Source: an uncultured Anaeromyxobacter sp.
Lineage (GTDB): Bacteria; Myxococcota; Myxococcia; Myxococcales; Anaeromyxobacteraceae
Length of the DNA: 64,000 bases
NCBI GenBank assembly: GCA_903904005.1
Contig: CAIVAR010000025.1
Coordinates: forward strand, 1-64,000
Direction of reading: 5' to 3'
Below the pieces are notes generated by a model, which worked only from the letters and a program-made list of their open reading frames with translations, was not told where the DNA came from and made no database searches. Positions 969 through 6,952 of this stretch are shown here, piece by piece (the first letter of the stretch is position 1; every line of letters begins with the position of its first letter). The translations under genes and the position numbers were made by a program.

Positions 969-2090
969 GTGGGCCGACCGCACCACATCCTCCTCGTCCC
1001 GGGCTTCTTCGGCTTCGCCAACCTCGGCGACTTCACCTACTTCGGCCACGTCCGGAATTTCCTCGCCGAGAGGGGGCCGGCGCTCGGGATCGACGGCGAG
1101 GTCCGGGTGGCGCGGACCGAGCCCACCGCCTCGCTCACCCGGCGCGCGGCGCTCCTCTGCGAGGCGCTCGCCACGCTCCTCGACGAGTCGCCCGGGCACG
1201 TCACCCTGGTGGGCCACTCGAGCGGCGGGCTCGACGCCCGGCTGCTCGTCACCCCGGGTGCGGTGCTCCCCACGCCCGCCGACGTGGAGCGCTGCGCCCG
1301 CGCCGTGCGCACCGTGGTCACCGTCTCGACGCCGCACCGGGGAACGCCACTCGCGCAGTACTTCGGCGGGATGTTCGGGCAGCAGTTCCTGCGGCTGCTC
1401 TCGCTGGTCTCGATCTACACGCTCCGCACCGGCAAGCTCCCCATCACCGTGGGTCTCAAGCTGGCGCGGCTGCTGCGCAACCCGCGCTCCCGCCCCTCCG
1501 GTGCGGTCGACCAGATCTTCCTCGAGCTGCTCGGCGACTTCGAAGGGGAGCGACGGCGCGCCGTCGAGCAGTTCCTGGAGGGCGTCCGCAGCGACCAGGG
1601 GCTCGTCTCCCAGATCTCGCCGGCGGGGATGGAGGTCTTCAACGCCTCCACGCAGGACCGGCCCGGGCTCCGCTACGGGTCGGTGGTGACGCGGGCGCGT
1701 GCCCCCGGCCTCCGGTCGCTCTGGGGCGCCGGGCTCGACGCCTCGCACCAGGTGACCCACGCCCTCTTCGTGGCGCTCTACCGGCTCTCCTCGGCCACCC
1801 CGGATGGGTCGCTACCCCCGATAAACCGGGAGCACGCCGCCGTCCTCCGCCGGGCCTACGGACGGATCCCCGATGCCGCCGCCAACGACGGGATCGTGCC
1901 CACCCTCTCCCAGATCCACGGGGAATTGCTGGCGGCGGCCTGGGCCGACCACCACGACATCCTGGGCCACTACGACCAGCCCACCCACGTTCCTCCTCAT
2001 TTCGACTGGATGTCCTCCGGAACGGGCTTCGACTTGCAGGGGTTCGAGCGGGCCTGGAGGCGGGTGGCCATCTTCGCCGGGACGATCTAG
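969..2090 (+). CDS. Alpha/beta-hydrolase, triacylglycerol-lipase-like
   Basis: The 373-residue protein begins with a hydrophobic strand followed by P-G-F-F-G, the usual oxyanion-hole region of bacterial lipases. It carries the nucleophile elbow G-H-S-S-G, with S84 as the likely catalytic serine. A later V-S-T-P-H-R-G-T segment near residue 120 is typical of lipase-type hydrolases. The C-terminal H-F-D-W region could supply the catalytic histidine. There is no clear signal peptide, so the protein may be cytoplasmic or exported by another route. The GTG start is set by the -10-like hexamer just upstream and by the start of homology. The ester substrate is unknown. Confidence 0.8.
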   Translation: MGRPHHILLVPGFFGFANLGDFTYFGHVRNFLAERGPALGIDGEVRVARTEPTASLTRRAALLCEALATLLDESPGHVTLVGHSSGGLDARLLVTPGAVLPTPADVERCARAVRTVVTVSTPHRGTPLAQYFGGMFGQQFLRLLSLVSIYTLRTGKLPITVGLKLARLLRNPRSRPSGAVDQIFLELLGDFEGERRRAVEQFLEGVRSDQGLVSQISPAGMEVFNASTQDRPGLRYGSVVTRARAPGLRSLWGAGLDASHQVTHALFVALYRLSSATPDGSLPPINREHAAVLRRAYGRIPDAAANDGIVPTLSQIHGELLAAAWADHHDILGHYDQPTHVPPHFDWMSSGTGFDLQGFERAWRRVAIFAGTI

Positions 2091-2108: not shown

Positions 2109-3143
2109 ATGCGACCGCGTGTCGACGCACAGGTGGCCTCGGCCGTCATGGCCCGGGCCCATGCCGTTGCGGAGGCCGTCCTGGCTGGCACGCCCTCCCT
2201 GCGCGCGCGGAAGGAAGGGCAGCGCCACGCCTGCGAGGCCGAGTTCGCCGGCCACGCCCGGGCGCTGGCGGCGGCGGTCGACCTGAGATGCCCGGCGGTC
2301 TTCCGGGAGCACGCCCGGCTCGCCGCGAAGCTCCACGACGCGGCCGGCCTCCCCCACGAGTCGGTCGGCGCCTGCTTCCGCGCGCTGCTCGACCAGCAGG
2401 GGGAACTGGAGCTCGCGCCCGAGCTGCGGCGCTGCCTGATCGCCTCGCTCGAGGCGGGGGTCGCCGCCTCCGACGAACCGGTGGACGTCGAGCCGATCGA
2501 GCTGTGGGACGCGACCACCGCCGCGCTGCGGGGAAACCGGGCCGCCTACCTCGCCGCGGTGGAAGCGTGGCGCGAGGGGCGTGGCGCACGGGTGGCGCTG
2601 CTCGGGATCGCCGAGGTCCAGCGCCAGGTCGGGGAGGCCTGGATCCGCCACCAGGTCACCATCCTCGAGGAGCACCGGGCCTCGGCGCTCGCATCGATCG
2701 GACTTGCGTTGCTGGCGCCCGAGACCTGGGGAGTCCCGGGTGCGCGTCGGCGCGGGCAGGCGGTCCTGGCGGCCGCGCCCGGCGAGTTCCACACCGTCGG
2801 TCTCCAGATCGCCGCCAACCTCCTCGAGCTGGAAGGGTACGCGGTCGAGGTGCTGGGCGGCGACACGCCGGGGGTGCAGCTCGCGGTGGCCTGCGTGGAG
2901 CGGAAGCCGGCGCTGGTGGGGATCGCGGTCTCCATCCTCGACCACCTGCCGGCGGCGCGGGAGGCGATCGAGATGGTCCGCCACGCCGCGCCCCACTCCT
3001 GCATCGTCGCCGGGGGCGCAGCGGCCCGTACCGCCGGTGCGCCGGCCCTGGGTGCCGACGTGCTCGTCCCCGAGCACTTCGACGGGCGCCTGCCGACGCA
3101 CGCCGAGGATTCCTCGGGCGAGCAGGCCGACGCGGTGCGGTAG
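2109..3143 (+). CDS. Cobalamin-binding CarH-like light-sensor module without a MerR domain
   Basis: The 344-residue protein has an unassigned helical N-terminal region (about 1-150), a four-helix-bundle-like segment (about 150-205) and a Rossmann-type B12-binding domain (about 215-330). Residues W178 and E188-H189 form the W-x9-E-H motif known from CarH photoreceptors, where these residues pack over adenosylcobalamin. E226-F-H228-T-V-G231 matches the E-x-H-x-x-G motif whose histidine ligates cobalt. Canonical CarH/LitR proteins carry an N-terminal MerR DNA-binding domain; the sequence here shows no recognisable helix-turn-helix. It starts 18 bases after the lipase-like gene and is probably co-transcribed with it. 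A methyltransferase-type corrinoid carrier is the main alternative, but those usually have D-x-H-x-x-G and lack W-x9-E-H. Confidence 0.75.
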   Translation: MRPRVDAQVASAVMARAHAVAEAVLAGTPSLRARKEGQRHACEAEFAGHARALAAAVDLRCPAVFREHARLAAKLHDAAGLPHESVGACFRALLDQQGELELAPELRRCLIASLEAGVAASDEPVDVEPIELWDATTAALRGNRAAYLAAVEAWREGRGARVALLGIAEVQRQVGEAWIRHQVTILEEHRASALASIGLALLAPETWGVPGARRRGQAVLAAAPGEFHTVGLQIAANLLELEGYAVEVLGGDTPGVQLAVACVERKPALVGIAVSILDHLPAAREAIEMVRHAAPHSCIVAGGAAARTAGAPALGADVLVPEHFDGRLPTHAEDSSGEQADAVR

Positions 3144-5512: not shown

Positions 5513-6952
5513 ATGTCGCGCGAGGCATCGATGCTGGGGGCCAAGGTCCGTGCCCTGCGCAGGCAGAAGAGCGTGAGCCAGGTGCAGCTCGCCGAGCGGC
5601 TCGGCATCTCCCCCTCCTACCTGAACCTCATCGAGCACAACCGGCGCGCCATGCCGGCGCCGCTGCTCATCAAGATCGCCGAGATCTTCGAGCTCGACCT
5701 GAAGGCGCTCTCGACGGAGCAGGACGCGCGCACCGTCGCCGACCTCATGGAGCTCTTCGGCGATCCCATCTTCGAGCACGAGGACGTGACCACCGCCGAG
5801 GTGCGCGACCTGGCCGCCCATGCCCCCACCGCGGCGCGCGGGATCCTGAAGCTCTACCACCGGTTCCGCGAGGCCCGGGAGGCGGCCGACAACCTCGCCA
5901 TCAAGATCTCCGGGCGGAGCGACCTGACCGGCGTCGATTCGTCGCGGATGCCCACCGAGGAGGTCTCCGACCTCATCCAGCGCCACAACAACCACTTCCC
6001 CGAGATGGAGGAGGGGGCCGAGCAGCTCTGGCGGGAGGCGCGCCTGGGCGGCGACGACCTGCAGCAGGGGCTCGAGCACCAGCTCCAGCGCGTCCACGGG
6101 ATCCAGGTGAAGATCGAGCGCACCGCCGACATGGGGGACGCCATCCGGCGCTTCGACCCGGAGAAGAGGGTCCTCTACCTCTCCGAGGTGCTGCGCCGAG
6201 GATCGCGCAACTTCCACCTCGCCTACCAGGTCGGCCTGGAGACCCAGCACCCGGCGCTGGACCGCTACGCCGCCGACCCGCTCCTCACCAGCGACGCGGC
6301 CCGCGCGCTCGCCCGGGTGCTGCTCGCCAACTACTTCGCCTCGGCCGTGCTCATGCCCTACGGGCCGTTCCTGGAGGCGGCGCGGCAGGAGCGCTACGAC
6401 ATCGACCTGCTCGGCCACCGCTTCCGCACCAGCTACGAGCAGGTCTGCCACCGGCTCACCACCCTGCGGCGCCCCGGTGCCGAGGGCATCCCCATCCACT
6501 TCGTCCGTGTCGACATCGCCGGCAACATCTCCAAGCGCTTCTCGGCCTCGGGGCTGCGCTTCGCCCGCTTCTCCGGCGCCTGCCCGCGCTGGAACGTCTT
6601 CCAGGCCTTCCTGACGCCGGGGATGATCCGCACCCAGCTCTCCCAGATGCCCGACGGCACCACCTACTTCTGGGTTGCACGCTCCGTGTACAAGGAGGGG
6701 GGCGGCTTCCACGCGCCCCGCACCCCGCTGGCCATCGCCATCGGCTGCGAGGTCGGGCACGCCAAGAAGATGGTCTACGCCGACGGCATGAACCTCGACT
6801 CGCGCGAGGCGGTGGTGCCGGTGGGGCTCACCTGCCGGCTCTGCGAGCGCACCGACTGCGAGCAGCGCGCCTTCCCGCCCATCCAGCACCCCCTCCAGGT
6901 CCAGGAGAACGTGCGCGGCGTCAGCTTCTTCGCGCCGGTGGGCGAGCGGTAG
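5513..6952 (+). CDS. ScfR-type transcriptional regulator (XRE helix-turn-helix plus IrrE/DUF2083-like domain)
   Basis: The 479-residue protein has an N-terminal XRE helix-turn-helix (about residues 8-64, with S-Q-V-Q-L-A-E-R-L-G and S-Y-L-N-L-I-E-H-N-R-R). A long IrrE-like middle region follows, then a C-terminal domain with the Cys cluster C-x2-C-x4-C followed by E-Q-R-A-F-P-P. This is the architecture of short-chain fatty-acyl regulators such as RamB, MlrA-type and PrpC-activator proteins, which sense acyl-CoAs and control acetate, propionate or glyoxylate metabolism. Methylmalonyl-CoA epimerase lies 5 kb downstream, which would suit a propionyl-CoA role but is not proof of regulation. An alternative in-frame ATG exists six codons inside the chosen start. 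Confidence 0.85.
   Translation: MSREASMLGAKVRALRRQKSVSQVQLAERLGISPSYLNLIEHNRRAMPAPLLIKIAEIFELDLKALSTEQDARTVADLMELFGDPIFEHEDVTTAEVRDLAAHAPTAARGILKLYHRFREAREAADNLAIKISGRSDLTGVDSSRMPTEEVSDLIQRHNNHFPEMEEGAEQLWREARLGGDDLQQGLEHQLQRVHGIQVKIERTADMGDAIRRFDPEKRVLYLSEVLRRGSRNFHLAYQVGLETQHPALDRYAADPLLTSDAARALARVLLANYFASAVLMPYGPFLEAARQERYDIDLLGHRFRTSYEQVCHRLTTLRRPGAEGIPIHFVRVDIAGNISKRFSASGLRFARFSGACPRWNVFQAFLTPGMIRTQLSQMPDGTTYFWVARSVYKEGGGFHAPRTPLAIAIGCEVGHAKKMVYADGMNLDSREAVVPVGLTCRLCERTDCEQRAFPPIQHPLQVQENVRGVSFFAPVGER

Follow-up and report, generated by a model that had tools for sequence, protein, structure and literature searches.

The window analysed here is the whole 64,000-nucleotide stretch of a contig from an uncultured Anaeromyxobacter sp., whose genome assembly comprises 4.56 Mb and is 98% complete. 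The open reading frame at 2109..3143 on the forward strand and the 18-bp gap that separates it from an upstream lipase-like reading frame were both confirmed as initially annotated. The features of the two genes, with residues numbered from the start of the downstream protein (hereafter the window protein), are as follows, CBD denoting the cobalamin-binding domain.

969..2090, + strand: lipase-like alpha/beta hydrolase (PGAP1-like match, 1.4e-5; GHSSGG motif), ending 18 bp before the sensor ATG
2109..3143, + strand: globin-CBD protein, putative stand-alone photocobilin-type sensor, ATG to TAG, 344 aa plus stop
2109..2471, + strand: globin-like domain, residues 1-121 (globin about 5-121), from PDB profile search and AF2 with Foldseek
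2232..2243, + strand: C42-E43-A44-E45, column of the CXRD/CXQD motif in the alignment with SasPcob
2319..2321, + strand: L71, column of SasPcob Trp296 in the alignment
2472..2507, + strand: linker joining globin to CBD, residues 122-133, from secondary structure of the AF2 model
2508..2726, + strand: four-helix-bundle half of the CarH-type CBD, residues 134-206, with helices 134-140, 144-158, 160-179 and 185-206 in the AF2 model
2631..2642, + strand: G175-E-A-W178 (GxxW), from sequence; signature of PMC11796333
2670..2675, + strand: E188-H189 (EH of Wx9EH), from sequence; invariant in the alignment of relatives
2748..3068, + strand: Rossmann half of the CBD, residues 214-320 (PF02310), from Pfam match and AF2 model
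2781..2792, + strand: G225-E226-F227-H228 (GxxH; lower axial His), from sequence and PDB matches
2856..2870, + strand: G250-G-D-T-P254 (GxxxP), from sequence; signature of PMC11796333
3069..3140, + strand: C-terminal tail, residues 321-344, predicted disordered (pLDDT <50 from residue 324) and fast-evolving (dN/dS 0.4-1.5)

A Pfam scan of the window protein returned the B12-binding family PF02310 as the sole match (1.7e-13), and the closest NCBIfam model was CarH (2.2e-10), at 40.3 bits against an equivalog cut-off of 400. The W178-x9-E188-H189 and E226-x-H228-x-x-G231 sets were found where the initial annotation had placed them. Light-responsive cobalamin domains have a published signature of GxxW, EH, GxxH and GxxxP (PMC11796333), and all four elements are present in the window protein. 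W178 corresponds to the Trp stacked against the adenosyl group (GxxW element, PMC11796333), and W178, E188, H189 and H228 are invariant among the aligned relatives. The Pfam match, the rank of the CarH model and this invariance indicated that the signature is not a chance occurrence. In addition, the four-helix-bundle half matched 8jbs, SasPcob and CarH; the nearest solved relatives found with the single sequence in the PDB were the photocobilin AbDPcob, CtMerR, TtCarH and SasPcob (entries including 8j2y and 8jbs), and a profile built from four sequences, the window protein plus three homologues, gave SasPcob as its best PDB match (9.9e-20). The C-terminal half thus has every residue of the signature and is a predicted CarH-type photosensor domain that binds AdoCbl.

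Weak matches to the MtbC and pyl_corrinoid models (1e-7 and 9e-7) raised the alternative of a corrinoid methyl carrier resembling MtaC/MtbC instead of a sensor. This is extremely improbable: the CarH model scored higher, the MtaC/MtbC/MtgC carrier models reached 18-32 bits against cut-offs of 310-450, Wx9EH is present, the N-terminal half is a globin (see below), and no methyltransferase family was recognised among the neighbouring genes scanned. A grouping with corrinoid methyltransferase carriers, which the initial annotation had named as evidence against its own reading, was likewise not indicated by the profile scores.

The Wx9EH / ExH AdoCbl pocket is shared with CarH (TtCarH, MxCarH), whereas the MerR helix-turn-helix (HTH) is missing and two further positions differ. 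F227 occupies the place of the TtCarH dimer salt-bridge Arg (Arg176), which is Trp in SasPcob and AbPcob, and TtCarH His132 corresponds to Ile179, so that the bis-His light state of CarH is not expected. Between members of the genus, dN/dS was 0.18 for the CBD, 0.30-0.44 for the globin, 0.4-1.5 for the tail and 0.11 for the upstream lipase. Both domains are under purifying selection, and the globin is less constrained than the CBD.

The N-terminal half, previously described as an unassigned helical domain, could now be assigned as a globin. A Pfam scan of residues 1-131 gave no match and no HTH, even at E = 10. When the four-sequence profile described above was run against all PDB sequences, SasPcob was matched twice, with the domain order opposite: its CBD aligned with the C-terminal half of the window protein, and its C-terminal bilin-binding globin aligned without gaps with residues 46-99 (i-E 0.023). 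A profile of the N-domain only (8 sequences) found six matches in 177,635 PDB sequences, namely SasPcob (two entries, E=0.004), phycocyanin (0.019), allophycocyanin, nitric oxide dioxygenase and THB11, all of which we read as globin-fold proteins. As the CBD dominated the full-length Foldseek search, the N-domain was modelled alone. The AF2 model of residues 1-131 (pLDDT 79.5; the AF2 models were built on shallow alignments of 11 and 7 rows) contained seven predicted helices (5-14, 17-27, 29-35, 39-59, 62-78, 84-95 and 104-121), and Foldseek ranked SasPcob first, followed by allophycocyanin, the DosC globin and phycobilisome proteins, with probabilities near 1.00, TM about 0.59-0.7 for most, and a globin E of 0.015. 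Hence, two independent routes into the PDB, sequence profile and structure, both put the SasPcob globin first. The N-terminal half is very probably a globin of the photoglobin/BBAG (bilin-binding) type, kin to phycobiliproteins, with modest E-values. A globin-like fold also carries the bile pigments of cyanobacterial antennae.

An N-terminal HTH, sought by Pfam, profile and fold, was rejected, given the empty Pfam scan of residues 1-131 and the recovery of globins, not HTH proteins, by profile and fold; the earlier view that no MerR HTH is present therefore held. A heme-based globin sensor was also considered and retains a small probability: although several relatives conserve His49, matches of the DosC/BpeGReg type ranked below the bilin globins.

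These results changed the placement of the window protein. The W-EH/ExH set had been taken to define CarH; it also defines photocobilins and many HTH-less sensors. Since other sensors share this residue set and a globin can be recognised in the N-terminal half, the window protein belongs with the globin-coupled B12 sensors. The assignment of a CarH-type B12 photosensor domain stood, on its signature, but the description of a CarH merely deprived of its output part did not, in view of the N-terminal globin and of the CBD tree, in which the protein falls apart from the MerR CarH group. The fusion of a CBD to a photoglobin or globin-like domain, which is the mark of photocobilins, was found by profile, fold and alignment. 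Because the N-domain is a globin and SasPcob ranked first, we regard the protein as a photocobilin-type globin and B12 sensor in reversed order, not as a headless CarH.

The bilin pocket was compared column by column with SasPcob. The mapping was anchored on Asp270, which is His in AbPcob, and on Trp296, which touches the bilin D ring (chain residues 264 and 290, the PDB chain numbering being 6 below that of the paper); as the first anchor predicts, the AbPcob row has His in the mapped Asp270 column. The CXRD motif of phycobiliproteins, the CXQD motif of photoglobins and the Asp270/His position are described in PMC10151467 and PMC10979010. The Asp270 column is Glu45 in the window protein and its genus. 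The Trp296 column holds Trp in 15 of the 17 aligned globins, both genus relatives included, and is Leu71 in the window protein and Gly in L015. The Arg of 'RG' is Ala79, and AAGLP is read where BBAG-2 has its RGMC motif. Judged from these replacements (Asp to Glu45, Trp to Leu71, Arg to Ala79), the bilin pocket looks degraded, the change to Glu45 being a conservative one.

Heme oxygenase (PF01126) was found neither in this genome nor in any of 24 Anaeromyxobacteraceae genomes; this absence is weak evidence for the less complete MAGs, and several of the family genomes are 98-100% complete. The enzyme was present in all four checked myxobacteria bearing globin and CBD, and none was found in four MAGs with anaerobe-type globin-CBD fusions. 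From gene content, the host bacterium appears unable to make bile pigment, and any biliverdin (BV) might come from the surroundings or from an enzyme that does not belong to PF01126. A photocobilin with two chromophores, in which such biliverdin would fill the globin and red light would also trigger Co-C cleavage, would agree with the globin fold, the column-by-column match to SasPcob, the conservative Glu45, Cys42 in the CXQD column and the Trp kept at position 71 in two genus relatives. This is unlikely, however, given the 24 family genomes, the loss of Trp71 and Arg79 in the window protein itself, and AbPcob, where His in place of Asp270 already goes with weak BV binding at an occupancy of about 20%, as reported in PMC10979010. 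Taken together, Glu45, Leu71 and Ala79 and the missing heme oxygenase suggest that the globin is probably bilin-free; most likely it would act without biliverdin, as a structural relay.

Relatives of the two domains were found in several arrangements. In other Myxococcales, a stand-alone CBD gene is adjoined on the same strand by a gene of 237-257 aa encoding a tandem globin (L022, L023, L025-L031, L034-L037), which the N-domain profile recognised twice in tandem (E 1e-10 to 1e-4); several of these carry RGMC/RGMS, the BBAG-2 mark. Globin and CBD are therefore partners in split form too. A Myxococcales globin has been linked to a B12-binding protein, and bilin binding was shown for BBAG-2 (PMC10151467). 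Like the BBAG-2 and B12 protein pairs (e.g., L022, L023 and L028), the locus of the window protein combines homologous globin and CBD, linked there by gene order; unlike them, it has one fused gene in place of two, a single globin in place of a tandem globin with RGM[CS], no RGMC and no heme oxygenase. By sequence, the window protein is the fused, single-globin counterpart of the split BBAG and B12 pair. Furthermore, four MAGs, from Elusimicrobia, Sporomusaceae, Synergistaceae and Riflebacteria (L054, L062, L071, L072), encode globin-CBD fusions with intact W-EH and show no heme oxygenase; the bilin Asp column holds Asn in three of them and Asp in L054. L081 is an Acidimicrobiaceae locus with a CBD and a C-terminal photoglobin; an N in the contig precedes the globin, which is read in a different frame because of an assembly gap or a frameshift.

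In a CBD tree of 47 sequences, the clade of the genus is placed with HTH-less and globin-associated domains, and a fork with support of 96/99 sets these apart from the MerR CarH group (Thermus and the genome's own CarH, L098); support is weak for the inner forks around the query. The MetH outgroup was misplaced as a long branch inside the HTH group and is unreliable, so the methyltransferase question rests on the profile scores and not on the tree.

The order of lipase and sensor and the gap between them are kept in G028 and G026, that is, in three genomes with the window, and the two genes are likely co-transcribed, as judged from this arrangement. The genus has three other genomes, of which two carry close relatives of the sensor (78-79% identity), and no match to the sensor gene was found in the other Anaeromyxobacteraceae genomes searched outside it. 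An alcohol-dehydrogenase gene follows the sensor in G026 and G028. In G027 of the same genus (L105), the alcohol-dehydrogenase gene comes next after the lipase, with about 73 bp between them and the 1-kb sensor missing; compared with G026 and G028, this empty site indicates that a single position either carries the whole sensor gene or lacks it altogether. The conserved spacing and order in three genomes would suit a photosensor-hydrolase pair, with the lipase regulated by direct contact. We consider such a pair quite improbable, because genomes across the order that lack the sensor, G027 among them, still have the lipase, which makes the latter a weak partner candidate and does not indicate a dedicated functional pair; a lipase-specific regulator was accordingly ruled down as the leading view. 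The neighbours scanned with Pfam were the lipase, a transporter and a regulator. Window positions 5513-6952 encode a regulator of the XRE type that carries IrrE-like and ScfR domains, the latter named for a short-chain acyl-CoA regulator. A scan for sigma-70 promoters and terminators found nothing and is uninformative at 73% GC, and no relatives of the sensor were found in the viral contigs searched.

The genome encodes a PduO adenosyltransferase, so AdoCbl can be made; CobA/BtuR was not found in it. It also encodes two further CarH-type HTH and CBD proteins. One (L098; G000:C43:952-1878) combines MerR_1 and CBD with the full Wx9EH/ExH, as in true CarH, adjoins a ComEC-like gene and sits in a genome without phytoene synthase. 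The other (L099:2134-2928, - strand; G000:C94), a second HTH and CBD protein of photosensor type, is divergent from a cyclopropane-fatty-acid-synthase-like gene (CMAS 1.5e-37). In Anaeromyxobacter dehalogenans, no CarH or carotenoid genes were found (PMC9304148).

No phytoene synthase, photolyase or phytochrome was found in the window genome, which makes it less evident what light sensing would bring and leaves room for a dark B12 or redox sensor. Cultured members of Anaeromyxobacter are facultative anaerobes, which would also suit a light-independent sensor of AdoCbl (or of B12 state or redox), whose CarH-type pocket would detect the coenzyme while the globin signals to a partner. We treat this as a serious rival, albeit a fairly unlikely one: all light-signature residues are kept, and in a published comparison all four signature-bearing proteins tested were photoactive and the one without the signature was not (PMC11796333).

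The explanation that we favour, with somewhat better than even confidence, is that the window protein may be a stand-alone photocobilin-type B12 photosensor with globin-CBD order, in which AdoCbl would serve as the light switch, the bilin-free globin as a relay, and a protein partner as the recipient of the signal. Each step is drawn by analogy with CarH and photocobilins as described in PMC10979010 and PMC11796333. In the dark, AdoCbl would be bound at the interface of the four-helix bundle, with W178 and E188-H189, and the Rossmann fold, with His228 as ligand, and would stabilise a dimer of the head-to-tail kind known from photocobilins. Light in the green or at shorter wavelengths would break the Co-C bond, whereupon the four-helix bundle with its EH helix would move and the dimer or the packing of globin against CBD would change. 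The altered surface would be read in trans by the partner protein, with the bilin-free globin acting as a structural relay. Without a bilin, the response would be limited to the absorption of AdoCbl itself, about 570 nm and below. As the window protein has no output domain, the signal must pass to a partner, and the earlier idea that one would be needed is reasonable. Stand-alone photosensors working by protein contact are known from SasPcob (PMC10979010) and AerR (PMC9144470), and in vitro, photocobilins of the stand-alone kind control an enzyme in trans (PMC10979010).

Among known systems, SasPcob (the Saccharothrix syringae photocobilin, PDB 8J2W/8J2X) is a stand-alone CarH-type CBD with a bilin-type globin and no output domain and was the best profile match to both halves of the window protein. 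In contrast to SasPcob, the globin comes first here, Asp270 and Trp296 are replaced by Glu45 and Leu71, and the genome has no heme oxygenase. Photocobilins with a C-terminal AdoCbl domain have the same order, as predicted structures in PMC10979010 indicate; the main text of that paper makes no statement whether any of them is from Anaeromyxobacteraceae. The globin-CBD order and signalling by protein contact are thus already described in the literature. CtMerR (8JBS) shares the CBD signature and fold but has an HTH and forms a light-sensitive tetramer. AerR (7TE2) is also an HTH-less B12 sensor, working via a partner transcription factor, but has a different N-terminus and gave a weak match (0.012).

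The window protein is therefore best filed as a photocobilin-like variant whose second chromophore was probably lost, and not as a CarH without its DNA-binding part. Judged from its residues and domains, it is a probable green-light sensor in which a B12 domain is fused to a globin-like domain in place of a DNA-binding domain. Tentatively, and with some doubt, we speculated that it may represent a class of single-chromophore, bilin-free globin-CBD photosensors in lineages lacking heme oxygenase, in which the globin changed from antenna to pure relay; the proposed class would include this Anaeromyxobacteraceae genus and the fusion-bearing Sporomusaceae, Synergistaceae, Riflebacteria and Elusimicrobia MAGs. 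Photocobilins are very recent, with two characterised in the literature surveyed. If true, an eroded bilin pocket in organisms that lack heme oxygenase would allow the two proposed roles of the globin, red-light antenna and structural relay, to be told apart, and the window protein would offer a compact green-light switch without a DNA-binding part. It would also bring lineages that have neither phytoene synthase nor photolyase into B12 photobiology.
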